Source of the DNA: Fragilaria crotonensis
Lineage: Eukaryota; Bacillariophyta; Fragilariophyceae; Fragilariales; Fragilariaceae
Assembly: GCA_022925895.1 (NCBI GenBank)
Contig: JAKSYS010000004.1
Coordinates: 338,768-402,767 of the forward strand
Length of the DNA: 64,000 nt
Direction of reading: 5' to 3'
The notes under the pieces were generated by a model. The model was given only the letters and a program-made list of their open reading frames with translations. It had not been told where the DNA came from and searched no databases. Shown here in pieces: positions 2,972 to 55,958 of this stretch. Each line of letters opens with the position of its first letter. The first letter of the stretch is position 1. The position numbers and the translations under genes were made by a program.

Positions 2972-3091
2972 GGCACCTGGCACCTGGCACCTGGCACCTG
3001 GCACCTGGCACCTGGCACCTGGCGCACTGGCCAGTGGCCAGTGGCCAGTGGCCAGTGGCCAGTGGCCAGTGGCCAGTGGCCAGTGGCCAGT
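2972..3091. repeat. Two adjacent 7-bp minisatellite arrays
   Basis: Seven exact copies of GGCACCT (2972-3020) are followed by an 8-base bridge and nine exact copies of GGCCAGT (3029-3091). The two units share GGC and length 7 but differ otherwise. The array lies between the ATP-grasp and NCA2-like genes. The short open frames that cross it are repeat translations, not genes. The rest of 2691-3797 is rich in GTAC words and holds no recognised gene. Confidence 0.95.
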
Positions 3092-8554: not shown

Positions 8555-9520
8555 GATTATGGTTTTGAGGGTTTGTACGTGCAGCTGTTGGTGAAAAAAG
8601 AACAATGAGCTGTCGACAATCGTTCGATGCGACAGCTCTCGATGGCGAGATGCGCCTATGGCTACGCAAAAGAATGTAACATAATCTAGCGCTGCGTCGG
8701 AGTGAAATTGTAGGTAGGAGGTCGCCTGTTCGAGTCATATTGTATACCTCATAACTCTGCCTCAACTGTTAGCTCTCAAGTATGGATTTCGTAGTGCTGT
8801 CGTAATTAAAAGTAATAAAAGGGTTTTGGGGTTGCCCACTAGGGGTTGGTCAAAGATTCGATCAAACCTTTCGGAAATCTCAGTTACGCAGTTTTGTTTG
8901 CAATCAGCAACACGCGGTCATCAGCTAAGCTTCATAGACTCACGTTCTGCCTCTGAACAAGAATGTGTGTTTGCGAATTTTCTAGCATTATAAACCCTTG
9001 CAAAAGTCGTTCTGTTGTCTTGTACTATTCCAGTGCACGTACAACTAACCATAGAAATCTAATGCGGTACTGGTACGGAGTATTCGCAGTACTGTACGGC
9101 TTCGGACGACTGCACCAGATGAAACTATGGCTATAATTATCTTTCGATGTGGTTTAGTAGCATACTGCTATACGGAGTACACACTCACAAAGTCGGACGG
9201 GTCACGGTGCTCGGGCAAACGCCCAACGTCGCGGTCGCCTTCGTCATCCATAGGCACATAGGCGCATGTGCCTGCGTTCATCGTGGCGACTCGGATCTCC
9301 GAGTACAACAAGTACCATACGCAGTAGGCAGTAGTACGCAGTACTCAAGTATTCCTCAACGGTGGTCCGTGACCAGCGCAGCGAGACTCCTTCGCATAAG
9401 CAGATTGCAGCGCAAGGGCCTACGGGTAGCAACAGTCAAGCTGTCTGTCAATTCCACATCTGACAAGCATACATTTTACTCGCAGTACTGCACATCGGTT
9501 GTAGTTGTAGTAGTGACACC
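8555..9520. other. Intergenic region rich in GTAC words
   Basis: No gene is recognised. The stretch 9060-9350 has dense GTAC and CAGTACT words, seen again in several intergenic parts of the window. A T-loop-like string near 8730 does not fold into a tRNA. Confidence 0.45.
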
Positions 9521-13872: not shown

Positions 13873-14979
13873 ATGGTATCGAGCATGACAAGTATTGCGA
13901 ATCCGACAAATGCGACAACAACTAGCAATAGTACAAGCAACCCGGCCCTTCTTCTCGACGGAGATGTTGCGGCAGCAACTGTCGTGACAGTTCATCCTCT
14001 CGTCTTGTTGAGTGTCTTGGATCATCACACTCGACGACAGGAACCAAATGGACGTGTCATTGGAACTTTGTTGGGACGACGAAATGGAAACATGGTACGT
14101 TTGTGTTGCTTTTGTATAAATATGGCGAGATCCCATACTACCTTGTTGAAGTTACTAATTCCCACACACACACTGCTACTACTACGTTAGGTTGAAATTA
14201 CCAATTGCTTCGCTGTTCCACACGCCGAACGCGGTTATGAAGTTGCCATTGGCAAGGATTTCAACAAGACCATGTTGCAATTGCATCGCAAGGCAAACCG
14301 AAAGGAGGTGGTTGTCGGTTGGTACGCCTCGGCCTGTGACAGCACAACCGGAACCACGGATGCCAATGGTTCGGAAGATGCTGGTGAAAAGTCACCAGCT
14401 GTTGTGACTCCACTCGTCTCGGATACGTCCTCTCTCATTCATGATTTCTATGCCACGGAAGCGGAAGATGGAGATCCAATTCATTTGGTCGTTGATACGA
14501 GACTGCTGGATGATTCGATTCAGATCCGGGGATACACGTCGAGTCCGGTTCTCATTCAGAATGAACCACTAGCCAATCTCTTTCATGAAATTAAAGTTGT
14601 TGTGCAATCGACCGAAGCAGAAGCCATTTGTCTCCATGAAATGCACAAACAACATGTCACCGCAGACGACAACACTACTAGTGACGACAAGAACCCCGTA
14701 TCACAGCTTCAAGCCAGCATGGGACAGTTGCTTCAATCGTTGGAAACTACCTCGTCGTATGTGGATGACGTTGTGGATGGCCGCCGTCCTGCCGATCCCA
14801 CGGTGGGACGGGCCATTTCCAATGTCATGGCACAAGTACCACGCATCCTACCCGCAAGTCGATTCGAAACTGTCTTTCATGAGAATTTACAAGATTTGCT
14901 CATGGTGACCTACTTGTCCAATTTGACCCGGACGCAATTGGATATTGCTGAAAAGTTACAGACGAGTTTGGGAATTTGA
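13873..14979 (+). CDS. EIF3F: Translation initiation factor eIF3 subunit f
   Basis: Coding sequence joins 13873-14094 and 14191-14979 (336 aa); the intron begins GTACGT, ends ACGTTAG, and sits in phase 0. The ATG at 13873 has a good context (ACCATGG). The protein is an MPN-domain subunit of the eIF3 complex, which loads the 40S ribosome. Visible landmarks are VTVHPLVLLSVLDHH, GRVIGTLLG, VEITNCFAVPH, FNKTMLQLHR, VVVGWYAS, SSLIHDFY and DPIHLVVDT. The JAMM zinc ligands of active MPN+ proteases are not evident, as expected for eIF3f. The C-terminal helix (VGRAISNVMAQVPRI to AEKLQTSLGI) is repeated as a broken fragment at 21,718-21,870. An Asn/Asp/Thr-rich insert lies between residues about 245 and 260. 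Confidence 0.93.
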
Positions 14980-15486
14980 GATTTTGGCGGGGTCGTCAGC
15001 CGCGGACTGCGTAGTACAGTTTTCGGAGCATGTATGACAGCAAGAGTTCGTGGACTGTGAGATACGAGTTACGAACAAAACGCATCCGCGATTGTGGCGA
15101 TGAATCTGCTATGTTAGCAGACAAGAGGGTGCTAGATCCCAAGCAAAGTAGAATGACAATTTACTGATGGCGTAGAATGATGCTCAGGCAAGGTTTTGCA
15201 GTACTGCTATCCAACTGTGTTGTCAAGTATTACTATGAAACACAATTGTATACCCCGAAGTGCTATACATGCGTCGTCACTCTCGAGCCACCGATTGATA
15301 CTTGTAATTGTGGTACTGCACATTCAAACACAACCGGCTAGGGCGCCTGCCCGAAATGACGAGGAAGTGGGTTGTCTTGTTCATTTGGACGACTGGAACC
15401 AAGACGGAAACTGCGAAGACGCTGGATGTTAAAGTTTTGTACTCGTAATGAACTATGGTACCTTCGTTATCTCCCTACCTGACGGC

Positions 15487-15760
15487 CAATAAGAAGTTTT
15501 GACCACCTCCTATCTCACTGGTCATGCCACCGTTGCCGCCATCGCTTCCCCCCTGGAACGTCAGTGGGCAAGTCACCATGAATTTGTGAATCGCACTTCC
15601 ATTCCCCTTGAGGATTGGACTTCCATAACTGGACGACACCTGCATCTCCACTAGTGGCAAGGACAGTCCCAGTGACATTCCATTGGCATTTCCAGGAGCC
15701 ATGTGATGGCAACACCTGGGTCGAGGTCAACTCCAACTTCTCATTTGATTCAATCCAAGC
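15487..15760 (-). pseudogene. SEH1 remnant: only the last WD repeat kept
   Basis: The reading LELTSTQVLPSHGSWKCQWN onward, through TGTVLATSGDAGVVQLW and GEWKC, equals the end of the intact SEH1 at 22,383. Immediately before it comes PAFAWIESNEK, which matches DNA upstream of the SEH1 start in copy B (near 23,590). An internal deletion equivalent to about 22,630-23,590 of copy B therefore removed the start codon and the earlier WD repeats. A further frameshift lies near the end (the GGSDGGNGG reading is in another frame). Confidence 0.88.
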
Positions 15761-16090
15761 AAATGCTGGAAGTGTTTTGGTTTGAGTAGACAGAGTAGAC
15801 ATCATGTACGCAATTCCAACCGTCGGACGGTAGACGTACTGCCATCCATGATACCAAGTTGCCTAAAACACAGTGGTGTCCGGGTTGCAGGTTGTGGGTC
15901 GCGGTTACGAACGTCCGATTTCTGCCAGGGAGTATGAGGACGAGTACGCAGTGTCCATTCCGGAAGACCACCTGCACAGTAGACAATTGCAGGGATCTGA
16001 CGGTCTCAAGCTTGAACAGCGTTGATGTGGCTAGTTTTCAATGTCCGTCCACAGCCCGCACCAACCCGTTGCTTACTTGTAGAGGCCATA

Positions 16091-19000
16091 TCAACGAACG
16101 TCGACGTCCCTCTTACAAGCATCAACAATCGAATGGATAAGAGGGCCAGGTTCAGGTGTGGCTTCTTGCCTTCCCAAAGCACGATCGCTTTGTTCGACTA
16201 ACCAATCGTGTCTCGCAATGGAACCACAGGTGTTCCAGAGCAGATCCAGAGCCTTTTGAAAATAAAAGGCAGCGTCATCGTAATTGCCAAGTCTGGCATG
16301 AAAGAATCCTGCCCTCTCGAGAGCGTATGCTTCCATGTGGGGAAGCCCGCAGAAGCGAGCTTGCCGATAGCGGCGTTGTAGGCGGCAGAAACAGCACCGT
16401 GCTTTGCTGATTTTCGGATCACCAGGTCCTCGGCATCCAAAAACGACAGATATGGCGGAGAATTCGGACAACCACGCGATACGGCGGTTGCAAGTCGCCT
16501 GCGATACCTTCTTGCCAGCTTGAGGTGCTTTCGTTTCCCATTTTGCTGGTAGCAACAATAGGATGCGATTCCGCCATAGAGGGAGTTTGAAGGTGTTCCG
16601 TAGCTGTAGAAGAAAGCCTTGCCCATCGACGTCAATTCGATCAGAACAGATTCAGCCAATGACCAGAATCCGAAACAGCATGCCAATATTGCCTTATAGT
16701 TCAAAGTCATCATCACGAGTATTCGATGGTTTGATGCCAGCGCTCGGCGAATATACGTTTCTTCATCCATAAATTCACCAGTGAGGATCGTCAACTCCTG
16801 CCAGCTCAGCGATCCATCGTTCCGTAAGTTCAGGACGAATTGTATGACTGGTTGCGTCCACATATCCATTGCCTCCTGAGAAGAATCACCGATTAACCGA
16901 GCATCTGCCCTCATTGAGGTTTCCAATTTCTCGATATTCGTGCCCAGAACGGCTTGTGTACCATACATCATGGCGAGGCAATAGGTCCCGTAAAGGACAT
17001 CACCGACTTCAAATCCAATGCTCGCCGCTCGTCGGAGAGTCTCTGGCATACCCCGGAGTGACTCGTACCAATGTATCAGTAACGTGAGTGACAAGACAGT
17101 CGTAGTACACTCCGCATCTCTGACCTGCATTTTGTCGAGAAGGGCGAGGGCAAGCTTGCCGAATCTGTATGCTCCACGGAAGTTGCCACTGGATAGCTGA
17201 GCAACACCATACATCGCTAACGCACATGCCGAGTACGCGTTGAGTCCGCCATTGAGTGTCGATTGTAACGCCAAAAGCGCTGAGTAGACACCGAGATTCG
17301 CCTCATCTTTTAGGAAGCAGTAATTGGACAAATTAACCAATATTCGTGATGTGGCTGTTGCAGCCTCGTCTTTCATTAAGGGCAAGCTCAAAATGTCGTC
17401 GTCAGACTTCCGACCTAGCATCCACTTGACCTTGAAAAGCTTCGAACCGATGAGCCGAAAGGATACCTTTCGTGGTACAATTATTCCCAGTGAACACAGT
17501 GCACGAATGGCAGCAGCTATTGACGACTCCACATCATTCTGTGCCATGACACATTCTACCCCGACAATCAACGCGTTGATCCTCATTCTGGTTGCCTTAG
17601 CACGATCTAGAACTTCGTTCGTCATCTCCGTGCATGCGTCATGATTGCCAACGATCAGCTCCATTCTTGCAAGAGTCTCAGTCATTTCAAAAGCCAGGTC
17701 ATAGAAATCAGTCCACTTTCGCGCATCATCCAAGAGCGAGAGCCCACGACGAAGTGCCGTGGCCGCATCAATAAATGCACTTTTTTCTTTGCAATACTTG
17801 GCTGCTTCAAGATGAAGACGAGCCAACTCCATACGATTTGTGTCGTCACGCACGAAATGAGGCGCATGAAAGAGGTGAACACATGCACGGTACCTGGATT
17901 CAGCACCACCAATCGCCAGTAAGACAGTTCCAATCGCCAAATGAATTCGTCCTTTCTCCTCCTCATCAATCAAGGACCGAAATTCAGTTTGGATAGTGTC
18001 ATGGCTGAATTGATATCCTTCTGTGATCTTCTCGACAAACCCTCCGCGTACAGCGTCCTGTATTGCCGTCGATATCGTGTGCTGTAATAGCGTTTCGCTA
18101 GAATGCCTTTTCTCGTCCGACTCGTCGTCGATATCTTGATCATCAAGCGACAACCTAACGCGCACCACAAGATCTTCAGTGAAGCGATATCCAAGCAGAG
18201 AGGCAATCTTGAGACTTTCTTGAACCGTAATTGGGAGCGACAGTACCTTCCTCGCCAGGATTTCTGCTAGAGTGATAGAGATCATGACTTCCTTTGAATC
18301 TGGTCCACGTCAAACTCCCACGATCCCGTGTTCGAATTCTGCACCAGCAATCCCTCCCACTGAAGAAATTCGATGAGCTTCATCACATGATACGGGTTTC
18401 CCATCGTTTTCTTGGCAATGATGCTGCTCAACTCTTTTGTCGAGGAGGTGGATGTTCCAATTATGCTGGAGATCAGCTCAAGAACACCCTCGCTGTCAAG
18501 ATTATCCAGTGATAGATCCAAAGCGTCCTCGTTACTCTTCATCTCATCGAAGATATCAGCAACACATGCAGACTCCTCGTCGCGGTAGGCCAGGATGATC
18601 ATGATGTTCGAAAGCTCATGGCCATGAAGCAGGACCTCAATCAGCTTCCTTGAGTCGTCGTCCATGCGATGTATGTCATCGATGAATAGCACTATCGGAT
18701 GCTTGTCGCAAGACACGGCTTGCAAAAAGGTTTTGATGGCTACCTTAAACTTGGCATATGCCGCGACATTCCTAACTGACATGTCAGAACCTCCACTGTC
18801 CTGTCCCGGTGCGTTGTCGAGGAGGGGAGATAGGTTGGAGATGCACTTCTCCAAAACGCGTCCATATTCAACTCCCAGCTGCTGCTGAAACTGAATTCGT
18901 CGTTCTTCAGTAAAGTCTGGCGATTGAATAAGGAGATCGCACAAATCCGAAAGTGCTGCCATGATGGCGGAGTTTGGTTCTTGGACTGACGAATTCTGAA

Positions 19001-19341
19001 AATACCTTCCCGACGCAAAGAAGCCGTTGCTTTCGAATACATGCTTTCGGAGGTGATCGACAAGCGATGTTTTTCCAGACCCAGCATCACCATGGACGAT
19101 AACTTTCGTCACCTTCTGGCGTTGATCATTGTTAGACAATCGGGAATATGCGTCCAGCAAAAAGTTTTGTCTCTCGACTCCGGCCGTACAGCACCACTTC
19201 ATCAATGGCTGTCGAGAACTCCAAAGCATCGTCATCCTCCTCGCTGCGAGGGTAATAGCTGTCCGTGACGGAGCTCAAATCCACACTAGCCGCAGTGCTT
19301 TTATCAAGCGGCACTTCTGAATATCCGTGACGAACTGGCAT
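16091..19341 (-). pseudogene. AAA_16/STAND-type ATPase with TPR-like tail, copy A (frameshifted)
   Basis: The start reads MPVRHGYSEVPLDKSTAA, and the reading frame changes three times. The first change is near 19,160 (one base more than copy B). The second is near 18,293 (a T run one shorter than copy B). The third is near 16,340 (a G run one shorter). Domains in order: Walker A (VHGDAGSGKTSLV), Walker B with tandem acids (PIVLFIDDIHRMDDDSRK), a sensor-like strand (NIMIILAYRDEES), the GNPYHVMKLIEFLQWEGLL helix of AAA_16 proteins, a winged-helix-like stretch (VQESLKIASLLGYRFTE), then about 600 residues of TPR-like helices ending in AFYFQKALDLL. This resembles the ATPase module of multi-domain signalling ATPases (STAND class). 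No kinase or cyclase domain is attached. With the present sequence it cannot be translated whole. Confidence 0.8.
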
Positions 19342-19429
19342 GATGACAGATGATTTTGTGAACCCTTCTTTTACCAATCGGGAGGTTTTGGTTGTGTTCG
19401 AAGTTTGAAGTTTGAACTCGAACTTCATA

Positions 19430-21717
19430 GCAGGTACTATGTACGACTACTAGAGTACTAGTAGAAGGCTCACACGAGTATGCCATGTACAAGTACTAGG
19501 ACCAGCGAGTTGTGCTGATTCTCTTTAAACATAAAACTTGATGAAAGATGGTATCGAGTTCCGAAAATGAAACAACATGTGCTCCGGTACTTGTAGGACA
19601 ATCTGTCTTTAAAGGAGATGAATCTGAAATATTCCACTACGTATTCCAAGTACTTCTATGACACGTGTATTTCGCCCTCTAGTACTACATATCGAACGTT
19701 GTTATGTCAAACGTCCACATATTTCACATGGCATCTACGTGGTTTACTTAAGGAGAAGCAGTAATCTTCCAATCCAAAATCCACTTCATTTGACGGAGTT
19801 TCTCTGTTGTCTAAAGCGAGGTCTTTTACACCCAAGTTTCCAAGTACGATGTGCACATAAGCAGTCATTCAAGTTTTGATTTTCTTGAAAATGAACTTGT
19901 GTCTTGTGTCCATGCGAAAACTCTTTTGCCGCCGTTTCGAACTCCCATGAAATCCCGTCGAAGTTCAAAGTGGAAACGCGACATGACTCCTGTGTACATG
20001 TAGTGGTGTGGATTTCTTGTAGCAATTGAAGTGAAGATGTCCTCAATACGCTGAGGCATTGCTGGAGAAAGTTCTGCTACTTGTTCGTAGGAACAACAGT
20101 TGACAACAGTATGAAAATCAACATGACAATTGGATGTGGGGGGCAGCAGGCAGGATTAAAATCACTTGGATGGTTCCATAAATCAGCAACGGTTTCAAAT
20201 ACAGTCTTTGGTCTGTTATGAAGGACAAGCAGTACACCACCGGAGGAAGGGATGATGATGAAGAAGTGAGTCATCAGTTATTTTCTTGGTGTTCACAAGC
20301 AAGAACAACCACCAGCAAACAATCTGCCTTCTGCATCTTGCTTACCTAGTATAGCTATTAGTACGCCCATCTATCTCTTGTCACGTTTGAATGTTTGCTT
20401 GAGTACTAGTACACGTAAGAAACTGGCATTTCAACTGGTCCTCACCAGCTCTGCCCACTTCCACTGCCTGGATTCGATGCAGCAGCAGTTGCTTGCTGCA
20501 CTAGCTGGGCTCTTTCCATCATGTCACAAAGTCTCAATATCTCCTTTGTTAGGAAGTTAATCATATCTTGTTGAGGATTGCAAACTGAATTCACTTGGAG
20601 CCAGCACTCCATGGTTGACTTCTTACTCCAGTAGCGTGGATGTAGGGTAGTTAGTAGTTTGTCATATAGCTTTGCGCAATGATCAATTTTGATTCCAAAG
20701 TCCGTGTTCTTGGGACGATGCACCAGCAGTGACGTCGTTGGAAGTCTTGACCATGATTGCGTTAGTACTTCTAACAAGAACAGAGGTGCATCATTATGAT
20801 TGAGACATCAAAAACAATACCTTCTTATTGTTTCTGGAGTCCTATGGGAGAGGGGATGGATTGATGAGGGAAGTCTTGAGAGGTACAATATGGATCCCCT
20901 GACCAGGATTTTGATGGCAAGCTGTTGTCTCAATTTTGCAGAGGAAATGACAGCAGCCCTCCAACATGCTTGATGTTGGGAAGGAGCTGCTGGGTGTTTC
21001 AGTTGTCATTACCCCTAATACAGCTGGGGTTTCATGAAAGGTTGCTACAGATGAAAGCCTCTGAACTCAAAAAGGAGCTAGGACAGATTTAAAGAGTTAG
21101 TTCTTGAATGTACCAGCAGACATTTGTTGGACTGAGACCCCCATTCAAAAGCTATCGAGACAAGCAAGGGCGTACGTAAGCTGTGCATACTAGAATTATT
21201 CTCTTAACCAGAGCAACAGCAACACAGCCGATGACAGCACCCTAGTAATGCTTATGCTGCCACTGATTTAGCACCTTCACTGCAGGCTGTTCAAAACCCA
21301 CAGGGCTGCAATTGACTTTGATGCCTGCTTTGTGAATGCTTTTGTATCCAAGCTCGTGAGGGATGTCTTGTTAAGGAACACAAAAGAGGTGGTGTCAGAA
21401 GAATGAGACAAGGAGGGTGTGGATCGAGTTCAGTGAGGAGGATGGGGCATCAATCAAGTTTTTAGATTACTGAGTCTATGTGCCCCAATGATACGCACCA
21501 GTCACAGGACAAACCAGCCATACAAGATTTGCTCACTGGCAAAATTTACATACTGAGTTTGCTTACTGCAAAGAAAAATTGCTTACAACAGACCTTCCTG
21601 ATGTTACTGTTGTTGTTTGTTCTGCATTCTCTTGCGCAGTCCAATGGCCTTGCTCTCCAAACTTGTTACACTAATCCTATGGAATTGAGTACCAAAATGT
21701 TCCACCAGCAAGTAAAC
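19430..21717. other. Spacer between the two duplicated segments
   Basis: No recognised gene. The start (19,437-19,500) is dense in GTAC words. A 111-aa minus frame at 20,777-20,442 (ends PGSGSGQSW) looks weakly coding but matches nothing I know. 20.8-21.5 kb shows no open structure. Confidence 0.45.
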
Positions 21718-21870
21718 CATGGGACAGGCCATTTCCAATGTCATGACAAAAGTACCAGGTACCAATATCCTTCTCACATGTCGATTCAAAACTGTCTTTC
21801 GCGAGAAGTTGCATGATTTGCTCATGGTTCCCAAGTTTTTGACCCGGAAGCAACTGGATATTGAGACACT
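21718..21870 (+). pseudogene. eIF3f C-terminal fragment
   Basis: The translation MGQAISNVMTKVPG followed by CRFKTVFREKLHDLLMV and LTRKQLDIE aligns to the last 55 residues of eIF3f at 14,810-14,979. It lacks all of the MPN domain and carries small indels, so it is a dead by-product of the duplication. Confidence 0.88.
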
Positions 21871-22382
21871 TGTATGGGAACGTCAGACGCGCACCGTACT
21901 GCAGTGTTTGGATTATGCGTGAGAGTGAGCGCGCGTGGACTGTCAGGTATGATATTCATTACGAACAACATTTGTGGTTGTGTGGTAATGCTTTGTTGGG
22001 AAGGCAAGGGTGCTAGAGCCCAAGCAAAGTAGAATGTTAATTTACCGATGGAGTAGAATGATCTTCAGTAAAGTATTGATACTACTGCTATCGAACTGAA
22101 TTGTCAGTGGACTTAAGCACAATTGTATAGCCCTAAGTGCTACATGTCGCGACTCGCGACCCACCGTTTGATACTACGATATGGCACATTCGAACACAAC
22201 CGGTTAGGGCGCCCACCCGAGACAACGTGAAACTAGGGTGTCTTGTTCATTTGGACGACCGGAACCACTTGACAAGTGCTGGATTTGACACCACTCGCGA
22301 CTGTCGTAGCAAGATACTGGTAGTACTGAACTAACTATAGTTATCACTCCACCTGACTGCCTTCATGAGTCTTGACCACCTC

Positions 22383-23522
22383 CTATCCCTGCATGATTTC
22401 ATCACTACTAATACCACCGTTGCCACCATCGCCACCCCCTGGAATGTCAGAGGGCAAGTCACCATGAATTTGTGAAACGCACTTCCATTCCCCTTGAGGA
22501 TTGGACTTCCATAACTGGACCACACCTGCATCTCCACTAGTGGCAAGGACAGTCCCAGTGACATTCCATTGGCATTTCCAGGAGCCCTGTGACGGCAACA
22601 CCTGGGTGGAGGTCAACTCCAACTCCTCATCATCCAGGCGATTGAGTTGATACACCCGAAGAGGCCCACCCTGCTCCGTCGCGGCGATCCAATGAAAGCG
22701 ACGTCCCACATTGGGAGCCCATGCCACATCCAACACAGGACCAGCATGTTTGGGAAACTGCAACGACATTTGCGTCCACTGTCTCGATGCCGCAATGTAC
22801 CTCCAAATCGCCAAATGCGTGCTCCCACCCACCACCAAGGTGGGAGGTTCGAAACGTCCCGTGCACCAACTCAACGACGATATCCCCCCACTTCCCGAAA
22901 ACGCTTGGAAGCTCCCCTGCAGGGGCCACTGACTAAGATTCTGCAAATCCACAGCCTCATAGATCCGACAAATACCATCGGCACTGGCTGTGGCCAATTG
23001 CAGTCCGAAATGGCGAGGTGCGAATTCGACTCGAGTCACGTGCGTCCTCGCGTCCGTGAGATTCGTTCGGACCAGCCAGTGCGTCCCCTGTTCTTCCCAC
23101 ACCTTGACTTCACAATCGCTGCTACCGCAGGTCGCAACTAACGTTCCGAATTCGGCATGCGACCAACTCAAATGTGTGACTGCTCCACGATGGGCCTGGA
23201 AGTGAGATGCCACGGCCCATGTATTACTGGTATTGTTGTTATTGTTGTTGGTTGTGGTTCCGTCGTGTGCATGATCGCCATTGCTGGTAGTGGTAGTACT
23301 GCCACATGGTTGTAAATTCCAAATACGTACGTGACGATCACCACTGCAGGTGGCCATACGGCGACCGTAAATATCGAAACTGACGTGATGAATGTAATCG
23401 GAATGGAGGGACGAAAGAATCTGAGTCGAGGACTCGGTTCTCACTAGAACTTTGTTGTTGTCCGTCATGATAACATCGTTCTTGACACTGCCGTTACTAT
23501 CGGATGAGATCATTGAAGACAT
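22383..23522 (-). CDS. SEH1: Nucleoporin SEH1 (WD40), intact copy
   Basis: A 379-aa WD-repeat protein. I chose the ATG at 23,522 (MSSMISSDSNG) because family similarity begins shortly after (SSLHSDYIHHVSFDIYGRRMATCSGD, key words DYIHHVSFDIYG). The longer frame upstream to 23,819 has matching DNA in copy A outside any gene. SEH1 landmarks are RHVRIWN, HRGAVTHLSWSHAEFG, DCEVKVWEE, TRVEFAPRHFGLQLATASAD, GICRIYEA, LSQWPLQ, VLDVAWAPNVGRRFHWIA, and WKCQWNVTGTVLATSGD with VVQLWK. SEH1 belongs to the Y-complex of the nuclear pore and to GATOR2. An Asn/Thr-rich insert (HDGTTTNNNNNNTSNTW) lies in the first blades. The C-terminal tail is glycine-rich. Confidence 0.9.
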   Translation of the reverse strand: MSSMISSDSNGSVKNDVIMTDNNKVLVRTESSTQILSSLHSDYIHHVSFDIYGRRMATCSGDRHVRIWNLQPCGSTTTTSNGDHAHDGTTTNNNNNNTSNTWAVASHFQAHRGAVTHLSWSHAEFGTLVATCGSSDCEVKVWEEQGTHWLVRTNLTDARTHVTRVEFAPRHFGLQLATASADGICRIYEAVDLQNLSQWPLQGSFQAFSGSGGISSLSWCTGRFEPPTLVVGGSTHLAIWRYIAASRQWTQMSLQFPKHAGPVLDVAWAPNVGRRFHWIAATEQGGPLRVYQLNRLDDEELELTSTQVLPSQGSWKCQWNVTGTVLATSGDAGVVQLWKSNPQGEWKCVSQIHGDLPSDIPGGGDGGNGGISSDEIMQG

Positions 23523-23914
23523 GATTAGACGTTGTATTCTTGATGATAACTTGATCAATACGCACACACTCGACTCCGGATGTGCTTGTTCAAATGATTC
23601 CATCCATGCAAATGCTGGATCGGGTTCTGTTTGACAGTAGGCACAGTACGTGTATGGGCTTTTAGGTTGCACTGCAACCAGTGTAACTCCAGTAGAGAAT
23701 TTACTGAATGTACTAAAGGTAGAGTACCCGATACTTGTGCCGTAATCCGTGATACTGGTACAACGGTACAAGTACTCTAACTTCAAAACCTGCAGTACTG
23801 GAGTAGCTATACCAAACACTATGCAATCAGCACACTAATGGTTGTACTCCTACTGCTACTACCTGGTAGCTGGTACCAATTCATTTGCATGAAACAGAGT
23901 GCTGAGTGGTGCCC

Positions 23915-23942
23915 GGGTGGCGGGTGGCGGGTGGCGGGTCGC
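23915..23942. repeat. Short 7-bp array, GGGTGGC
   Basis: Three exact copies of GGGTGGC and a fourth with one change (GGGTCGC). The matching place in copy A (about 15,885-15,902) has a degenerate, non-repeated version, so the array expanded in copy B after the duplication or decayed in A. Confidence 0.8.
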
Positions 23943-24153
23943 GGTTCCTTACTACATCGTACCGGTTCCTGCCCGGGAGTGTGCGGAGAAGTATGCTGTA
24001 CCCATTCCGGAAGACCACCTGCACCGTAGACAATGATGTATCCCACATCGAAGGGATCTGAGGGTCTCAAGCCTGAACAACGTTGATGTGGCTCGCCTTC
24101 AATGTCCGTCCACAACCCACACCAACGGTCGCTTGCTTGCAGAGGCCATATCA

Positions 24154-27100
24154 TCAAACGTCGACGTCCCCCTTACAAGTTTCAACGATGGAATGGATTA
24201 GAGGGCCAGGTTTCGGCTTGGCTTCTATACTTCCCAGAGCACGTTCGCTTTGTTCGACCAACCAATCATGTCTCGCAATAGAACCACAGGTGTGCCAGAG
24301 CAGATCCAGCGCCTTTTGAAAATAAAAGGCAGCGTCATCGTAATTGCCAAGTCTGGCTTGAAAGAATCCTGCCCTCTCGAGGGCGTACGCTTCCGTGTGG
24401 GGGAAGCCCATCGCATTGAGCTTACCAATGGCAGTGTTATAGGCGGCAGAAACAGCACCGTGTTTTGCTGATTTTCGGACCGCCAAGTCCTCGGCATCCA
24501 AAAGTAACAGATAGGGCGGAGAATTCGGACAACCACGTGAAACGATGCTTGCAAGTCTCCTGCGAAACATTCGTGCCAGCTTGAGGTGCTTCCGTTTCCC
24601 ATTTTGTTGGTAGCAAGAATAAGATGCGATTCCACCAAAGAGGAAACTTGACGGTGTTCCGTAGCTGTAGAAGAAGGTCTTTCCCATCGACATCAACTCC
24701 ATCAAAATAGATTCAGCCATTAAGCAGAATCCGAAACAACATGCCAATATGGCCTTATAGTTCAAAGTCATCATCACGAGTATCCGATGGTTCGATGCCA
24801 GCGCTCGGCGAATATACGTTTCTTCATCCATAAATTCACCGGTAAGAATCGTCAACTCCTGCCAGCTCAGCGATCCATCATTCCGTAAGTTCAGGACGTA
24901 TTGAATGACTGGCTGCGTCCACATATCCATTGCCTCCTGAGAAGAATCACCTAATGACCGAGCATCTGCCCTCATGGTAGCTTCTAATTGCTCGAGATTC
25001 GTCCCCAGCACGGCTTGTGTGCCATACACCATCGCGAGGCAATAGCTCCCGAAAAGGACATCACCGACTTCAAACCCAATGCTTGCGGCTCGTCGTAGAA
25101 TCTCTGTCATACCCCGGAGTGACTCGTAGCGATGTATCAACAACGTAAGCGATAAGACAGTCGTGGCACATTCTGCATCTCTGACCTGCATTTTGTCCTG
25201 AAGGGCGAGGGCAAGCTTGCCGAATCTATATGCACCACGGAAGTTGCCACTGGAAAGCTGAGCAACACCGTAAATCGCTAACGCGCATGCCGAGTATGCG
25301 TTGAGTCCGCCATTGAGTGTCGATTGTAACGCCAAAAGAGCTGCGTAAACACCGAGATTCGCTTCATCCTTGAGGAAGCAGTAAGTGCACAAATTAACCA
25401 ATATCCGTGATGTGGCTGTCGCAACCTCGTCTTTCATTAAGGGCAAGCTCAAAATGTCGTCATCCGACTTCCGACCTAGCATCAACTTTACCTTGAAAAG
25501 TTTCGAACCGATGAGTCGAAAGGATGCCTTTCGTGGTACAATCATTCCCAAAGAAAACAGTGCACGATTGGCTGCAGCGATTGACGCCTCCATATCATTC
25601 TGCGACATGACGCATTCGACACCGATTAGCAGCGCATTGATCCTCATGCTGGTTGTCTTGGCGCGATGTAGAACTTCGTTCGTCATCTGCGTGCATGCGT
25701 CATGATTGCCAACGATAAGCTCCATCCTTGCAAGAGTCTCAGTCATTTCAAATGCCAAATCATAGAAATCAGTCCACTTTCGCGCATCAGCATCCAACAA
25801 AGATAGCCCACGGCGAAGTGCCGTGGCCGCATCAATAAATGCACTTTTTTCTTTGCAATACTTGGCTGCTTCAAGATGAAGGCGAGCCAACTCAATACGA
25901 TTCGCGTCGTGACGCACGAAATGAGGCGCATGAAAGAGGTGAACACATGCGCGATACCTGGATTCAACATCTCCGATAGCTAGCAACACGCTGCCAATCG
26001 CCGTATGAATTCGTCCTTCTCCTCCTCATTCATCAAGGATTGAAATGCAGTTTGGATAGTGTCGTGGCTGAATTGATACCCTTCTTTTGTCTTCTCGACA
26101 AACCCTCCGCGTACAGCGTCTTCTATTGCCGTCGCCACCGTCTGCAATGAAAACGTTTCACTAGAATGTAGTCTCTCGTCCGACTCGTCCTCGAATACCT
26201 GATCATCCAGGGACGACCTTACACGTACCACAAGATCCTCAGTGAAGCGATATCCAAGCAGAGAGGCGATCTTGAGACTTTCTTGAACCCGATTTGGGAG
26301 CGACTGGCCAGGATTTCTGCTAGAGTGATGGAGATCATGACTTCCTTTTGAATCTGGTCCACGTCAAACTCCCATGATCCCGTGTTCGAATTCTGCACCA
26401 GCAATCCCTCCCACTGAAGAAATTCGAGAAGCTTCATCACATGATACGGATTTCCCATCGTTTTCTTGGCAATGATGCTGCTCAACTCGTTTGTCGAATT
26501 GGATGATGATCCAATAATGCTGGAGATCAGCTCAAGAACACCCTCTGTCAAGATTATCCAGTGATAGATCCAAGGCGTCTCCGTTACTCTTCATCTGATC
26601 GAAGATATCAGCAACACTTGCAGACTCTTCGTCGCGGTAGGCCAGAATGATCATGATATTCGAAAGCTCTTGGTCATGAAGCAGAACCTCAATCAACTTT
26701 CTTGAGTCTTCGTCCATCCATTGAACGTCATCGATAAAGAGCACTATCGGATGCTCGTCGCAAGACACCGCTTGCAAAAAGGTTTTGATGGCTACCTTAA
26801 ACTTGGAATACGCTGCGACGTTTCTAACAGACACATCAGCGCCTCCGCCGTCCTCTCCACGTGCGTGATCAAGGAGGGGAGATAGATTGGAGATGCACTT
26901 CTCCAAAACACGTCCATTTTCAACTCCCAACTTTTGCTGAAACTGCATTCGTCTTTCTTCAGTAAAGTCTGGCGATTGAATGAGGAGATCGCACAAATCC
27001 GAAAGAGCTGCCATGATGGCGGAGTTTGGTTCTTGAACTGACGAATCTTGAAAATATTTTCCTGACGCAAAGAAGCCGTTGCTGTCAAATACCGGCTTTC

Positions 27101-27392
27101 GGAGGCGATCGACAAGCGATGTTTTTCCAGACCCAGTATCGCCATGGACGATAACTTTCGTCACTCTCTGGAGGTGATCATTGCTAGAAAATCGGGAATA
27201 CGCGTCCAGCAAAAGGTTTGACTCCCGATTCCGGCCGTACAGCACGACTTCATGAAGGACTGGCGAGACTTCCAACGCATCTTCACCCTCCTCGCTGCGA
27301 GGATTAAAGCTATCCGTGACAGAGCTCAAATCAACACTAGCCGCCGTGCTTTTTTCAAGCGGCACCTCTATAACACCACGACGAAGTGCCAT
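24154..27392 (-). pseudogene. AAA_16/STAND-type ATPase with TPR-like tail, copy B (frameshifted)
   Basis: Same gene as at 16,091-19,341. The start is MALRRGVIEVPLEKSTAA. Walker A is VHGDTGSGKTSLV and Walker B is PIVLFIDDVQWMDEDSRK, closer to the AAA_16 consensus than in copy A. The frame is lost near 26,545 (two bases missing relative to A), near 26,300 (about ten bases missing) and near 26,015 (one T missing from a run). From 25,989 to 24,154 the TPR-like tail is one open 611-codon frame and covers the point where copy A is broken. Each copy is intact where the other is broken. The 2- and 10-base losses are not homopolymer artefacts, so this copy is probably a true pseudogene. Confidence 0.8.
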
Positions 27393-28571
27393 GATGATTG
27401 ATTTGCGAAATCTAGGTTTAAGAAGCGGGAGGGTTTACCGCTTATTGTTGCGTTCGAACTTCGTGGAGTATTTGATGTATGCATACATTGTATTGGAATT
27501 CTTGTTTTTGCGAAGTACATTACATCTTGTACGAACATACATGTATTTCTTGTGTAATTTCATAACGTCGTTGGTCTTGGAACTTGGAACGTTGATTCTG
27601 GCACACGAGCGGCTTAAATGAACCGAATAAATGTTGAAACCGGAGTATTCCTTTTGCTTTTAGACATCGAAATCCATCTAAACAACACATTCTTCGCCAG
27701 GTAATGGACGATTGACTGTTAGCGCGAAGGTGCCCCTGTTCGTATGACAACTGACAACAGATATCCGTCGTAGACGTTGCATAGAGTAGAGAGTACTACC
27801 GGTAGAACATAGTAGATTGTGTTTTTATGATGCCACGATGCTTTAGCTGACACGAATGACCACTTCTCGAAGAATAAATGCGTATTTGTCATCATGTTCA
27901 CCAACACTATTTCCAAAAGGTCGATATATAGTAGAAGTAGCTATAATATGTATATATACGTATGACATCAATGACTCAGACATTTGAATGTCTTCTTCTA
28001 AAATATACGACAGTGGGAAAAACTATTACTGGAAAAACACCTTTTTTCGGATCAAGGAAGTTGTTTATTCTTTTAATGTATAAAAACAGTAAAAATAGGG
28101 TGATTTTTTGCATGAAAACACCTTTCTGTTTCTACGTGTACTGTACATTCTTACCGTACACTACAGTACGGCAAAATTCTATCACTGTAGTTGAGTTAGG
28201 GTACCAGGTAGCTAGTAGGCGCAGCTGCAGTTTTCAATATACCAGGTTGCAGACCTCATGTGTTGATAGCATTTTAAAGCAACCTGCACCTGCACAAGAC
28301 ATGACGACTTCCATCTTAAAGCCAAACATGGTGATCACTTCAAACTTGTTGCTTCCAAGTTGCTCTCCCAGCCACTTAAGCATAAAATCTTTTCAGAAAG
28401 CTGAATAGTACTCATTCTTCTTGCAAATAATCTGTGCTTGGCTTTGCAAGCATATGTGCAGCATAAGCAATCCAAGGACAGAATTCTTTCAATTTCTTAT
28501 TGACTTTCAAGCACTAGAGAATGTCAACAGATTCCACCAGAATCATGCAAGGAATGCTGCACTGGACATCA

Positions 28572-35561: not shown

Positions 35562-36874
35562 AAAGTACGGAAATTCCACCGAAGTGGTATTATGTAGCGG
35601 AGTGTAACGGGGGTCCCCGTATAATTTTACTGTACTCTAATTGGGGTGGGTATAATTTAGGTAATTTTTGTTGCACAAGTGGCGCTGAGAGTGGATTTTT
35701 TCCTTCGTAGAGCCTCCTATTAAAAATCCACTATTCCACTTGTACTGGATCTCAACATCCTACGCGCATTTTGTTCACAGTACTCCGATCATAAAGGATT
35801 ATATTGGTACCACTGTCATCATCTGCATCATCACCCTCATTGTCATAAGCGACTGATCTTGTTGAATACAACAACTACCCGGTTGGGATGTTTTTGGGAT
35901 GCTGTTTAGTTTGATGGTGGCTGAGGTCATGATGAATTGCTGCCTTGGTTAGATGGAATCCGAGTTAAGATGTTGGTGGGCATCTATGTTGGTGCATGGG
36001 TTGCTTGAGGCAACTGCAGGCCTGTCAACAACATGTTTTGCGCTGTATACGGAGGCTTCATTGGAGAAGTCATGGATGTACAAGTACTGGTTTGTAAGAA
36101 TGAAGTGCTTTTCATGCTGGTTGGTCCATTGGTTGGTGCATTAGAAGCATTGAGCAAGATGTTGGCTGGCGGCATCAAAGTTGGTGCAACCAATCCGCCG
36201 CCCACAAACCAGCAGCTCACGTATGCAGTCTCAACAACATACCCAACAACAAGAAGCAAGTATTGATGGAGATGCCAGGTAAATGGTGGACTTCTCTGTC
36301 AGAGCAACCGTGGGATTGCTGGCTGTTGTGATGGCAAATGCATCAGTAATTTGGAATCGGTTGTACCGCTGTTCTCCGGAAATTGTGTTGTTATGTTATC
36401 ATTGCTGGGCATACTGTCAGGACTGCATAGGACTGGTTTACAGGCATGCTGGTTGGTGATGTTGTTGGAATGCCATCAAGGAGATGGGGCGTCATCACAA
36501 GCTGCAAACTTGAATTGCCATGGCTACCCTGCCTAAGGACTGCAATTGAGTGAAATGGCCACATCTAGAGATGTTTAGTTGCTACTTGTTGGGTTGTGGT
36601 GAGCAATCATCAAAGGTGAAGGTAAACTGCAATGTGAGCTAATTGATAACAACATCTATCCGGATAGTCAGCGTTCAGAGTCCGCCATAGATTTCGTTTT
36701 ATCTTCACGTTAAAAATACTGTACTGAGTATGTACTTAGAAGTCCGTAGCCGTAGCACAGTAGGCTATATACCGTACGACCTGTAATCGAGCAACACTTG
36801 AATGCACGACATCACGACCTCACGACCCTTATCCGTGGTGGTACTGAGAGTGGAATTAAAAGGACTACTATCAC
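35562..36874. repeat. 1.31-kb tandem repeat, unit 1
   Basis: First of three head-to-tail units, each starting at AAAGTACGGAAATTCCACCG. It carries matching open frames on both strands: plus 36,033-36,266 (MFCAVYGGFIGEVMDV, with a hydrophobic FMLVGPLVGALEAL) and minus 36,259-35,984. Unit 1 is the most diverged, including a 3-base in-frame difference (GPLVGALE here, GPLVALE in units 2 and 3). I recognise no family, and it may be non-coding. Confidence 0.92.
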
Positions 36875-38185
36875 AAAGTACGGAAATTCCACCGAAGTGG
36901 TATTATGTAGGGAGTGTAACAGGGGTCCCGTATAATTTTACTGTACTCTAATTTTGGGGTGGGTATTATTTAGGTAATTTTGTTGCACAAGTGGCGCTGA
37001 GAGTGGATTTTTCCTTCGTAGAGCCTCCTATTAAAAATCCACTATTCCACTTGTACTGGATCTCAACATCCTACGCGCATTTTGTTCACAGTACTCCGAT
37101 CATAAAGGATTATATTGGTACCACTGTCATCATCTGCATCATCACCCTCATTGTCATAAGCGACTGATCTTGTTGAATACAACAACTACCCGGTTGGGAT
37201 GTTTTGGGATGCTGTTTAGTTTGATGGTGGCTGAGGTCATGATGAATTGCTGCCTTGGTTAGATGGAATCCGAGTTAAGATGTTGGTGGGCATCTATGTT
37301 GGTGCATGGGTTGCTTGAGGCAACTGCAGGCCTGTCAACAACATGTTTTGCGCTGTATACGGAGGCTTCATTGGAGAAGTCATGGATGTACGAGTACTGG
37401 TTTGTAAGAATGAAGTGGTTTTCATGCTGGTTGGTCCATTGGTTGCATTAGAAGCATTGAGCAAATTGTTGGCTGGCGGCATCAAAGTTGGTGCAACCAA
37501 TCCGCCGCCCACAAACCAGCAGCTCACGTATGCAGTCTCAACAACATACCCAACAACAAGAAGCAAGTATTGATGGAGATGCCAGGTAAATGGTGGACTT
37601 CTCTGTCAGAGCAACCGTGGGATTGCTGGCTGTTGTGATGGCAAATGCATCAGTAATTTGGAATTGGTTGTACTGCTGTTCTCCGGAAATTGTGTTGTTA
37701 TGTTATCATTGCTGGGCATACTGTCAGGACTGCATAGGACTGGTTTACAGGCATGCTGGTTGGTGATGTTGTTGGAATGCCATCAAGGAGATGGGGCGTC
37801 ATCACAAGCTGCAAACTTGAATTGCCATGGCTACCCTGCCTAAGGACTGCAATTGAGTGAAATGGCCACATCTAGAGATGTTTAGTTGCTACTTGTTGGG
37901 TTGTGGTGAGCAATCATCAAAGGTAAAGGTAAACTGCAATGTGAGCAAATTGATAACAACATCTATCCGGATAGTCAGCGTTCAGAGTCCGCCATAGATT
38001 TCGTTTTATTCTTCACGTTAAAAATACTGTACTGGAGTATGTACTTAGAAGTCCGTAGCCGTAGCACAGTAGGCTATATACCGTACGACCTGTAATCGAG
38101 CAACACTTGAATGCACGACATCACGACCTCACGACCCCTTATCACGTGGTGGTACTGAGAGTGGAATTAAAAGGACTACTATCAC
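36875..38185. repeat. 1.31-kb tandem repeat, unit 2
   Basis: Nearly identical to unit 3, with mostly one-base indels in G, C or T runs. Its frames are plus 37,343-37,573 (76 aa) and minus 37,566-37,294 (90 aa). Those peptides are identical in unit 3. Confidence 0.93.
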
Positions 38186-39485
38186 AAAGTACGGAAATTC
38201 CACCGAAGTGGTATTATGTAGGGGAGTGTAACGGGGTCCCGTATAATTCTGTACTCTAATTTTGGGGTGGGTATTTTTAGGTAATTTTGTTGCACAAGTG
38301 GCGCTGAGAGTGGATTTTTCCTTCGTAGAGCCTCCTATTAAAAATCCACTATTCCACTTGTACTGGATCTCAACATCCTACGCGCATTTTGTTCACAGTA
38401 CTCCGATCATAAAGGATTATATTGGTACCACTGTCATCATCTGCATCATCACCCTCATTGTCATAAGCGACTGATCTTGTTGAATACAACAACTACCCGG
38501 TTGGGATGTTTTTGGGATGCTGTTTAGTTTGATGGTGGCTGAGGTCATGATGAATTGCTGCCTTGGTTAGATGGAATCCGAGTTAAGATGTTGGTGGGCA
38601 TCTATGTTGGTGCATGGGTTGCTTGAGGCAACTGCAGGCCTGTCAACAACATGTTTTGCGCTGTATACGGAGGCTTCATTGGAGAAGTCATGGATGTACG
38701 AGTACTGGTTTGTAAGAATGAAGTGGTTTTCATGCTGGTTGGTCCATTGGTTGCATTAGAAGCATTGAGCAAATTGTTGGCTGGCGGCATCAAAGTTGGT
38801 GCAACCAATCCGCCGCCCACAAACCAGCAGCTCACGTATGCAGTCTCAACAACATACCCAACAACAAGAAGCAAGTATTGATGGAGATGCCAGGTAAATG
38901 GTGGACTTCTCTGTCAGAGCAACCGTGGGATTGCTGGCTGTTGTGATGGCAAATGCATCAGTAATTTGGAATTGGTTGTACTGCTGTTCTCCGAAATTGT
39001 GTTGTTATGTTATCATTGCTGGGCATACTGTCAGGACTGCATAGGACTGGTTTACAGGCATGCTGGTTGGTGATGTTGTTGGAATGCCATCAAGGAGATG
39101 GGGCTCATCACAAGCTGCAAACTTGGAATTGCCATGGCTACCCTGCCTAAGGACTGCAATTGAGTGAAATGGCCACATCTAGAGATGTTTAGTTGCTACT
39201 TGTTGGGTTGTGGTGAGCAATCATCAAAGGTAAAGGTAAACTGCAATGTGAGCAAATTGATAACAACATCTATCGGATAGTCAGCGTTCAGAGTCCGCCA
39301 TAGATTTCGTTTTATTCTTCACGTTAAAAATACTGTACTGGAGTATGTACTTAGAGTCCGTAGCCGTAGCACAGTAGGCTATATACCGTACGACCTGTAA
39401 TCGAGCAACACTTGAATGCACGACGACCTCACGACCCCTTATCACGTGGTGGTACTGAGAGTGGAATTAAAAGGACTACTATCAC
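38186..39485. repeat. 1.31-kb tandem repeat, unit 3
   Basis: Third unit, ending at GGACTACTATCAC, after which the sequence leaves the repeat. Frames equivalent to those in unit 2 are plus 38,651-38,881 and minus 38,874-38,602. A further plus frame (38,262-38,474), with a hydrophobic end TTVIICIITLIVISD, is open only in this unit. Confidence 0.93.
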
Positions 39486-39630
39486 AGTACTATAGTAGGA
39501 GAGATCCTATATGACATACGCTTATACATTATACACCATACACACTACGGATGTGTCCAGTTTTGGTGAACCTTTTCACTACAAGGTACAAGGCGGTACT
39601 TGTACCTTGCATATGCATAATAAGATATAA

Positions 39631-40519: not shown

Positions 40520-40943
40520 GGGGAATTTGCAATTTAGTCCATAAATAAGTTTAAAGATTATAAAGTACAATGACCCTCTATCTAGTTTTGTACACTATTG
40601 CAATATAGTACATAATGATTTCACTATTTCAATAAAGTACACATGTTTTGGCCATGTTTGCTATGTAGTCCATTTTTTAATTATAACACCCATTTCTCAA
40701 TTTCCGCGCCCGCCACGCCAAGGTTCCACTGAAGATATGGTACCCCGTTGTGTAGATCAAACATAAATCAACCATGGTCACTACTTTTTCATGGAGCCGT
40801 TCTCCATCATTTATTTTCTGATGATGGCATTGTTGGTTACAAACCTTTTCATTCTGACCCTGTCCATCAACTTTAACAGTGGTCATAATTCACCTTGGTG
40901 CGATGCTCTTGTCACATTGTGTGATATCCATGGTGTGTCAAAG
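40520..40943. repeat. MULE left terminal inverted repeat
   Basis: Begins GGGGAATTTGCAATTTAGTC and matches 44,443-44,022 in reverse complement up to GGTGTGTCAAAG. Contains a 69-aa frame (40,886-40,677, minus; MTTVKVDGQGQNEKV) identical to the one in the right repeat. This probably reflects repeat identity, not a gene. Confidence 0.92.
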
Positions 40944-41666
40944 ATCACTGACAAACAATTCAAGTTTAGAACCAGTATTCTACACAACTTCTCGTATTCA
41001 GTAGAGTGGAGGAGATCTTTGTGCTGGAAAGCGGGGCACAATGACAATTGTGCAAATTGAAACCAAGTGGCCATGAACAACTTGACCGTCATGAAGAATA
41101 GTATTGGCCGTGAAGATGTTGATTATATTAAGGAGTCTGGCTGATGAACAAAGACATGACAATTCCAACAATGAAGCCAATTCCAATGAAGCTGATGAAG
41201 ACTACGTCATCAAGGAGGATGATGTAGCTTTGGACAACTACGGCAAGGTTGACATGGAAAGAGTCTTTCCAAACGCTGATCATGACAACCCCAGCCAATC
41301 AAGTACATCCACACCAGGGACAGGGCTGGTACTAGCTAGAGTTCTTTGTTGGATTTTGTCTCAAGGTACCTCGAAATGAGGTAGACTTAATTCACAGTGG
41401 TTGCGATGATAATGGTGGCGTCCTCGTTGATGTGGAATGCCGTTTCAAGAAAACGGAAGAAGATGACATAACACACAGCAAGTAACATAGATGCTGCGGG
41501 ACATGTAACTAGTAGTACTAGTAACGTTACTTTTGTCATTTGCTTATTCTTGTTCAAGAACTTCTCTTTGGTTACTTGAGTTGTCACTTTCCTCTTAGTG
41601 CGACTAGTGCATCTAGTGCGTCTTCATATCTTCACTATGAATGTGTTTTAGTCTTCCTCCTCTTCA

Positions 41667-43673: not shown

Positions 43674-44021
43674 TCAGCCAGGTGATGGAAGATACAGGAA
43701 TCCGTCTCCCGTCACTAGTCTCCTCTTGTCACCTGCCTGTCACAGTTGACTGTTTTCTTGTCGATTTGTACTGGATGGTACCCTATCAGACAATAGGCAG
43801 TGCACTGCAGTGGAAGGACAAAGGACAAAAGGAAGGGGAGGAACTGACTGCTTTGTTTGCTTGCTTGTTGTTGTTTGAAATGGTGTGTGTGAAATGGATT
43901 ATGGCTGGATGATAATGGATGAATGTGCGATTGTGCAAAGTTGAGGCGCAGTTACTTCTACGTAAGTGTATACCGCCAGTAGCGTTAGTACTAATTGCGC
44001 GCAAATTCTTTTTCAAGGGAA

Positions 44022-44443
44022 CTTTGACACACCATGGATAGCACACAATGTGACAAGAGCATCACACCAAGGTGAATTATGACCACTGTTAAAGTTGATG
44101 GACAGGGTCAGAATGAAAAGGTTTGTAACCAACAATGCCATCATCAGAAAATAAATGATGGAGAACGGCTCCATGAAAAAGTAGTGACCATGGTTGATTT
44201 ATGTTTGATCTACACGACGGGGTACCATATCTTCAGTGGAACCTTGGCGTGGCGGGCGCGGAAATTGAGAAATGGGTGTTATAATTAAAAATGGACTACA
44301 TAGCAAACATGGCCAAAACATGTGTACTTTATTGAAATAGTGAAATCATTATGTACTATATTGCAATAGTGTACAAAACTAGATAGAGGGTCATTGTACT
44401 TTATAATCTTTAAACTTATTTATGGACTAAATTGCAATTTCCC
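44022..44443. repeat. MULE right terminal inverted repeat
   Basis: Reverse complement of the left repeat with a few base changes. The same 69-aa frame lies at 44,079-44,288 on the plus strand, pointing outward. The outermost bases are GCAATTTCCC. Confidence 0.92.
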
Positions 44444-50135: not shown

Positions 50136-50287
50136 TTTTGCACCCAGCCGAGTAAAGTGGAAACGCTTGTAATGGGAGCTTCCTATACGCAGCCGAGTAA
50201 AGTGGAAACGCTTGTAATGGGAGATTCCTATACCGTATAGGAAGCTCCCATTACAAGCGTTTCCACTTTACTCGGCTGGGTGCAAAA
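50136..50287. repeat. Perfect 54-bp fold-back with an internal direct copy
   Basis: The left arm 50,136-50,189 (TTTTGCACCCAGCCGAGTAA onward) is the exact reverse complement of 50,234-50,287. Between the arms lies a third, direct partial copy (50,190-50,233), whose end CCTATAC meets the right arm as CCTATACCGTATAGG. The DNA could form a long hairpin. No target duplication is visible at its edges. Confidence 0.95.
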
Positions 50288-51467
50288 TTAGAGCAGGTTT
50301 AACTTACTTAGCAAAATGGTTTACTTAGGGTGTTCGCGACCGTTACTGAGCGCGCGTTTTCGGTCATCCGTCCTTTGGTCGCTATTGATCATCAGTGATG
50401 GCAACAACACCACAGTTTGTCAGCATGCATTCATCACTGCTTCCACTGTTGTTTGAAAACCTACAGACAATTCGCAACAGGTGTGAATAACCCTGATAGA
50501 GTTCCAAATAACCTAATTGAAAGAGGGGTTTGACATTCCTTTGAGGCAAAACACTGAATGTGAGTACTCTAGTAATTAACTGCTGGTGACACATTTTGTT
50601 GACTTCACTCCTCTACCTGTGAACAACCAAATGCCTAACCGGTGAACAACCAAATGCCTAAGTAAGAACAACCAGCCATGAATTGCAAGCACATATAAAG
50701 CAGAGCTTGTGATGAATCAGAAGAACACCTCTTCTACTCTGAAATTTCACTTCATACTTCATACAATGGCTGAATGAAACCTATTAGCAATTCTGGAAAG
50801 CCTTTGTTTAGTACTTCTAAATATGTCTCTTGAATTCAGTCATGTTGCCACATTTCCCAATAAACAACTCCCACTGGAGATGGACAATGAACAGTCAGAT
50901 TCTTTCATAGTAGTATCTCATAACCTAGACCTACTCCTGATCTCCTTGTTCTGCCTGTGATCAAATCAGAGCGTGATAATTGCCTGCTGGTTAGAAGCCC
51001 CTGCCTCCATCATCACACTGCAAAGCAACAGCTGCAAGCTGTGAAATTTAACACTACAAGGTTTATGGGTAAGCATCAACTGCGGGTGGAAGCAAACGAA
51101 AATCATGGATTGCCGACGTGGTGTCCATATAAAAAATCACATCGAAGTATCGAAGTTCGGTAGCTACTCCCAAGTTCCACTTGAAAGTCAATGGTGAGTA
51201 CAAGAACTCGAGTACTTCTACCGGTATTATGCTGTGGTAATTCGCTCATGTTACTAAGATCAATGTAGGAAATCCCTTCACGCTTTCACCGCGTAAAGTA
51301 ACTCGAGAAGTACCAAAATTATACAGTCGTGCACAGTATTCTAATGGCATGAAATAATTGCGAGCAACTTTGTTGACCTCTCATCACTACACCTCCTCTA
51401 TTTGACCTGATTGTCATCCACTCTTCTGTTTGTTCTTCTTTGCCATTGTTCCCACAATACTGGCTTG
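50288..51467. other. Intergenic region
   Basis: Apart from the 23-bp duplication, nothing recognisable is seen. Short frames on both strands lack motifs. Confidence 0.4.
50616..50661. repeat. 23-bp tandem duplication
   Basis: CCTGTGAACAACCAAATGCC plus TAA is followed directly by the same string with two changes (CCGGTGAAC...). A third shorter echo (AGAACAACCA) follows. No gene is associated. Confidence 0.85.
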
Positions 51468-55800: not shown

Positions 55801-55958
55801 GAGGAGCTCATGTTGTGTACTTTCAATCGCAGCCTGGAATACTACCACAGACTCCACCAGGCATACCTGTCCTCCAGTCAATCACTAGAGCTCCCGCCGT
55901 GATCGCTCCCAGAAGCACTCAGCCCAGTCAAATTGCACCACAGCCTCGGATTTCATAA
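52870..55958 (+). CDS. bZIP transcription factor with C-terminal PAS/LOV-like domain
   Basis: Proposed exons are 52,870-52,914 (MTDPYGEFEDSDEME) and 53,479-55,958; the 564-base intron starts GTAAGA and ends TTCCAG in phase 0. The product is about 841 aa if one apparent one-base loss near 54,040-54,075 is allowed for (reading changes from QQQQAMSTG to the frame giving SQAVQYTPVYQPQIYTNATP). Order: acidic start, a long Gln-rich activation-like region, a basic zipper (about 375-410; NREHARNTRLRKKAYLEQL, with the N-x7-R signature), a conserved middle block (FRYTLVTEDAVVAGNQMM, RWVMSTINATQLGARMEV, LELMFDVMAFMLQL), then a PAS/LOV-like domain (about 607-705). This order, bZIP then LOV, is that of stramenopile aureochromes and bZIP-PAS factors. 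The LOV-like core keeps a cysteine in SCRILQGQET (codon at 55,374) and the Asn pair of LVNYT and FRNYM. Other flavin contacts differ. Confidence 0.82.

Follow-up and report, generated by a model that had tools for sequence, protein, structure and literature searches.

A three-gene segment present in two direct copies

We analysed a window of 64,000 nucleotides from Fragilaria crotonensis (contig JAKSYS010000004.1, positions 338,768 to 402,767 of the forward strand); all coordinates given below are those of the window. Self-BLASTN and alignment of the window delineate two homologous segments, copy A at 14,804-19,389 and copy B at 21,720-27,436, neither of which is assigned a strand. The match is made up of two direct and collinear blocks. 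In the first, 14,804-15,744 is 73.7% identical to 21,720-22,630 (E 7.6e-167); in the second, 15,881-19,389 is 87.2% identical to 23,921-27,436 (E 0). These E values rule out chance similarity between A and B. The first-pass annotation had described 14.8-19.4 kb as duplicated at 21.7-27.5 kb, and the two blocks bear this out. In a global alignment, the copies are homologous throughout except for gaps. The homology sets in at about A 14,801, inside exon 2 of the eIF3f gene, and dies away past A 19,389 and B 27,436; on the A side, faint similarity perhaps extends to about 19,415.

The unit spans three genes: the 3' end of eIF3f on the plus strand, then SEH1 and a gene for an AAA_16 ATPase, both on the minus strand. 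Retrocopying is ruled out, because the segment includes intergenic DNA as well as genes on both strands. A segmental duplication in direct orientation is supported. The copies do not abut. Between them lie about 2.3 kb of DNA (19,416-21,715, no strand assigned) in which self-comparison revealed nothing convincingly similar to other parts of the window. This spacing calls for either an insertion after the duplication or a more complex origin, and leaves the left edge of copy B unproven as the original breakpoint.

Intergenic positions of the two copies differ at 127 of 481 sites (Jukes-Cantor K 0.325), in agreement with a Ks of 0.32 between the two ATPase copies. Together, these two values point to a single neutral age for the whole unit. 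In all substitution counts between A and B, codons touching indels were left out. For the ATPase, short stretches around each frameshift were also left out, and each of the eight segments was read in the frame with the fewest stops. The eIF3f comparison was limited to codons within A 14,801-14,945, and that of the SEH1 tail to A 15,547-15,744.

eIF3f and SEH1 in the two copies

On the A side, eIF3f is intact, with two exons on the plus strand (13,873-14,094 and 14,191-14,979) separated by a 96-bp GT..AG intron and ended by a stop codon. The open frames match the Pfam families JAB and MitMem_reg, and the best PDB match of exon 2 is an eIF3f chain (7.8e-39). The gene is therefore identified as eIF3f by its MPN (JAB) and MitMem_reg domains together with its top match. 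In copy B, a C-terminal fragment is found at 21,716-21,862 (plus strand) by tblastn and alignment. It corresponds to a 51-column match, 61% identical, to residues 204-252 of exon 2 in A, and, owing to a 29-bp gap, neither its final residues nor the aligned stop are in frame. Left of 21,716, neither eIF3f exon 1 nor any upstream gene could be traced by window self-comparison or tblastn, and tblastn at E 0.1 gave no further eIF3f match in the window.

The substitutions in this fragment resemble those of a sequence without constraint. Over 43 codons, a small sample, 5 synonymous and 15 nonsynonymous changes were counted (omega 0.93), and 12.8-15.3 nonsynonymous changes are predicted if the fragment never functioned. 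This load fits a fragment dead since the duplication and suggests that eIF3f-B was cut by the breakpoint. The first-pass annotation had read eIF3f as intact in A and reduced to its C-terminal part in B, and had explained the loss by the breakpoint; the gene model, the 51-column match and the substitution counts all speak for that reading.

SEH1 is intact in copy B (22,386-23,603, minus strand). The surrounding open frame, 22,386-23,834 on the minus strand, encodes 483 residues and has candidate starts at 23,603 and 23,522. It matches WD40 in Pfam, and Seh1 is its best PDB match (5.8e-63), whereas the best chain named SEC13 reaches 4.7e-29; the frame thus encodes a WD propeller closer to SEH1 than to SEC13. 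In copy A, tblastn and alignment recover the last WD repeat alone (15,578-15,745, minus strand), which is 93% identical to residues 402-457 of the 483-residue B frame. No further SEH1 match was found in the window by tblastn at E 0.1.

The main gap in A measures 963 bp and is equivalent to B 22,632-23,594. Beyond it, toward the ATPase, A has smaller gaps of 2, 157, 25, 14 and 14 bp. The first-pass annotation had already placed a whole SEH1 in B and its last WD repeat in A, as the PDB and tblastn matches now indicate, and had drawn the deletion at 22,630-23,590, a few bases off the measured span. As the 963-bp deletion is in frame, it joins sequence upstream of SEH1 to the SEH1 tail in a fused open frame (15,518-15,862, minus strand), found by alignment across the deletion. 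This frame has 115 codons, 96 of them from the first ATG.

Budding yeast is viable without SEH1. In the cells studied in PMC5992584, SEH1 is dispensable for Y-complex formation, according to the passages of that source cited here. Both genes had been called essential in the first-pass annotation. For eIF3f, this agrees with the cited statement that the gene is essential in fission yeast (PMC1173091), whereas for SEH1 in the present organism the term is not backed.

Constraint and probable decay in the ATPase and the SEH1 tail

The third gene of the unit makes up most of the duplicate and had been overlooked by the first-pass annotation. About 3.2 kb of each copy, 16,095-19,342 in A and 24,154-27,390 in B (both minus strand), encodes an AAA_16 ATPase, for which STAND-like is our own label. 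The AAA_16 matches, 8.6e-22 with 78.8 bits in A and 8.6e-25 with 88.6 bits in B, are well above the Pfam cut-off of 32.6; matches to nSTAND_NTPase5 fall under the Pfam cut-off, as do weak TPR matches in the second half of ATPase-B. Three frameshifts are present in each copy, near 19,164, 18,292 and 16,338 in A and near 26,544 (2 bp), 26,303 (10 bp) and 26,016 (1 bp) in B. None of the sites is shared, and at each of them the frame of the other copy is unbroken.

Comparison of the two ATPase copies over 1,034 codons gave an omega of 0.218 (bootstrap 95% 0.175-0.271), and no in-frame nonsense codon was found across the compared segments. These values were set against 60 simulations in which one copy was unconstrained from the start and the other took synonymous changes alone. 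The simulated omega had a mean of 0.434 and was never less than 0.332, while the dead copy collected a mean of 13.5 nonsense codons and never fewer than 7. Since both observed values lie outside the simulated range, purifying selection evidently acted on the two ATPase copies through the greater part of their history.

This past constraint in both copies, with no nonsense codon, would also be expected if the frameshifts were sequencing errors and both ATPases living genes, and four of the six frameshifts are single-base events within or next to short homopolymer runs. Against such errors, two of the ATPase-B frameshifts are losses of 2 bp and 10 bp. In addition, about 6.4 kb of ATPase sequence has six frameshifts and about 6.5 kb of four other open genes has none (P 0.015), a comparison biased by the fact that these four genes were picked for being open. 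Overall, we regard sequencing error as a possible but doubtful source of the frameshifts.

The SEH1 tail left in A bears on the time at which that copy was lost. Over 65 codons, it has 4 synonymous and 5 nonsynonymous changes. A tail dead from the start would be predicted to carry 19.6-23.5 nonsynonymous changes, so that the 5 observed are too few (P 1e-4 or less), and the nonsynonymous rates of the eIF3f-B piece and the SEH1-A tail are different (Fisher P 0.0013). The deficit, 5 changes against the 20-24 expected of a tail dead from the start, argues for a late loss of SEH1-A. Judged from these counts, SEH1-A was presumably either lost late or had its tail overwritten by gene conversion. The view of the first-pass annotation that a later internal deletion took SEH1 from copy A is upheld to this extent, with the caveat that conversion gives the same pattern.

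Gene conversion has to be weighed because Ks in the tail is low, 0.097 as compared to 0.32 (Fisher P 0.011); the similarity may thus come from conversion and not from a long life of SEH1-A. On the tail's own Ks clock, 5 nonsynonymous changes are not below the neutral expectation (P 0.17-0.32). In this scenario, SEH1-A would have died early and SEH1-B would later have overwritten the tail. The 9 differences in 195 bp agree with it, in that only 0.0004 of codon-shuffled ATPase draws match so low a number, but equally few differences are seen in 1.6% of real overlapping ATPase windows. The longest identical run of the tail, 65 bp, is not exceptional either, as the ATPase has a run of 68 bp and 10% of shuffles reach 68. 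Moreover, the remnant stops at the edge of the deletion, so that a converted tract would have to sit just inside it. An early death of SEH1-A followed by conversion therefore has a real but minor chance of being right. A near-identity tract was considered as proof of tail conversion and rejected, the longest run of the alignment being in the ATPase.

Proposed history of the locus and related cases

We consider the locus to be best explained by a partial segmental duplication with its breakpoint in eIF3f, after which the left SEH1 copy was lost at a late stage (probability about 0.8). A segment running from inside the last exon of eIF3f through SEH1 and the AAA_16 ATPase would have been duplicated alongside in direct orientation, the breakpoint within eIF3f leaving this gene whole on the left side only. 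After the duplication, purifying selection would have acted on the two ATPases, and probably also on the two SEH1 genes, over most of the elapsed time. The 963-bp deletion would later have wrecked the left SEH1, leaving SEH1-B as the gene, and the ATPase copies would have acquired their frameshifts independently. The net result would be a shift of SEH1 by about 7 kb to the right. The surviving eIF3f and SEH1 are predicted to work and are presumably the sole copies.

A relocation of SEH1 is in keeping with two homologous segments of which B holds the whole gene and A its last repeat. That copy A adjoins the whole eIF3f suggests that the remnant-bearing place is the ancestral one; as no outgroup was found, polarity rests on which copy retains the open frame. 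Searches of prokaryotic contigs with SEH1, and of viral contigs with SEH1, eIF3f exon 2 and one ATPase-B frame, gave no relative, a result that is uninformative on sister eukaryotes.

The first-pass annotation had described the locus as a reciprocal loss. In the strict sense, this would mean that eIF3f and SEH1 were both duplicated in their entirety and that the left part of eIF3f-B was later deleted or replaced, with the intervening 2.3 kb as the replacement. The edges of A and B are indeed not directly joined, and the DNA between them is unmatched. However, eIF3f-B is partial, its nonsynonymous load is as high as in a piece that never functioned (within the small sample of 43 codons), and window self-comparison and tblastn showed neither exon 1 nor upstream genes beyond its left edge. 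We therefore find a strict reciprocal loss unlikely; on present evidence, SEH1 alone of the two genes ever had two full copies. The description of a dead partner flanking each gene omits the ATPase, which was long constrained and is frameshifted in both copies.

The tail of the fused frame in A is more alike between the copies than its surroundings, but it is highly improbable that this frame persists as a small chimeric gene or is held similar by ongoing gene conversion with SEH1-B. An assembly artefact, with two haplotypes placed one after the other, is scarcely credible given that neutral sites differ by 26%, far above usual allelic divergence, that the flanks of A and B are unlike each other, and that each haplotype would be without one entire gene.

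Under a partial duplication followed by late loss, about 13 kb would hold a segmental duplication that moved one conserved gene while its neighbour stayed put. The three genes of the unit act as mutual clocks, with a fragment probably dead from the start, a gene probably lost late and a gene apparently long kept twice. If sister species have a single copy, the locus would be a clean example of gene-order change via duplication and loss. That a gene changes place when it is duplicated and its first copy disappears is a known route, of which SEH1 would be a further example, and a new mechanism is not required.

A 2006 study reportedly found that whole-genome duplicates were lost differently in separate lineages. 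As in that case, different duplicate copies survive in different places, but here both survivors are on one chromosome and one of the genes was probably never fully doubled. The functional human gene DPY19L2 was relocated within low copy repeats and, in the account given in the cited passages (PMC1475853), a segmental duplication was likewise followed by silencing of the ancestral copy and retention of the descendant, so that the working gene changed place. In contrast, DPY19L2 went to another locus and mouse shows the old place, whereas the tandem shift of SEH1 spans about 7 kb and lacks such an outgroup. Alternate retention after duplication is also described, in the cited part of a preprint, for Cenp-C in the Drosophila montium group (PMC12724597). 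There too, a conserved gene is single-copy at a new place after the ancestral copy was lost, but that case covers 23 species and ours one locus in one genome. In yeast, duplications of linked gene sets with partial or chimeric terminal genes resemble the present unit in that neighbours were copied jointly and the terminal gene in part; the sets described in the cited passages (PMC2728529) have low synonymous divergence, unlike the present copies, with a neutral K of about 0.32 and advanced decay.

In the surroundings of the unit, 28,000-53,000 has few long open frames and a G+C content below that of the gene-rich left third of the window. Copy B thus borders a stretch that is poor in genes and bears repeats. 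Self-BLASTN shows a unit of about 1.3 kb repeated in tandem about three times at 35,562-39,486 (97-98% identical) and an inverted pair of 440 bp at 40,521-40,960 and 44,004-44,443 (97.7% identical, about 3 kb apart). Self-inverted matches in the same comparison mark imperfect palindromes at 50,133-50,290, 59,770-59,873 and 3,019-3,091. On the minus strand at 8,835-8,964, a U4 spliceosomal RNA scores 47.4 bits, barely over the Rfam gathering score of 46; together with the spliceosomal intron and eIF3f, it marks the DNA as eukaryotic. An open frame of 786 codons at 53,598-55,955 has a PAS domain over the Pfam cut-off and a bZIP match under it, and another at 61,481-62,272 contains a DDE_Tnp_4 transposase domain (E 4.5e-15).
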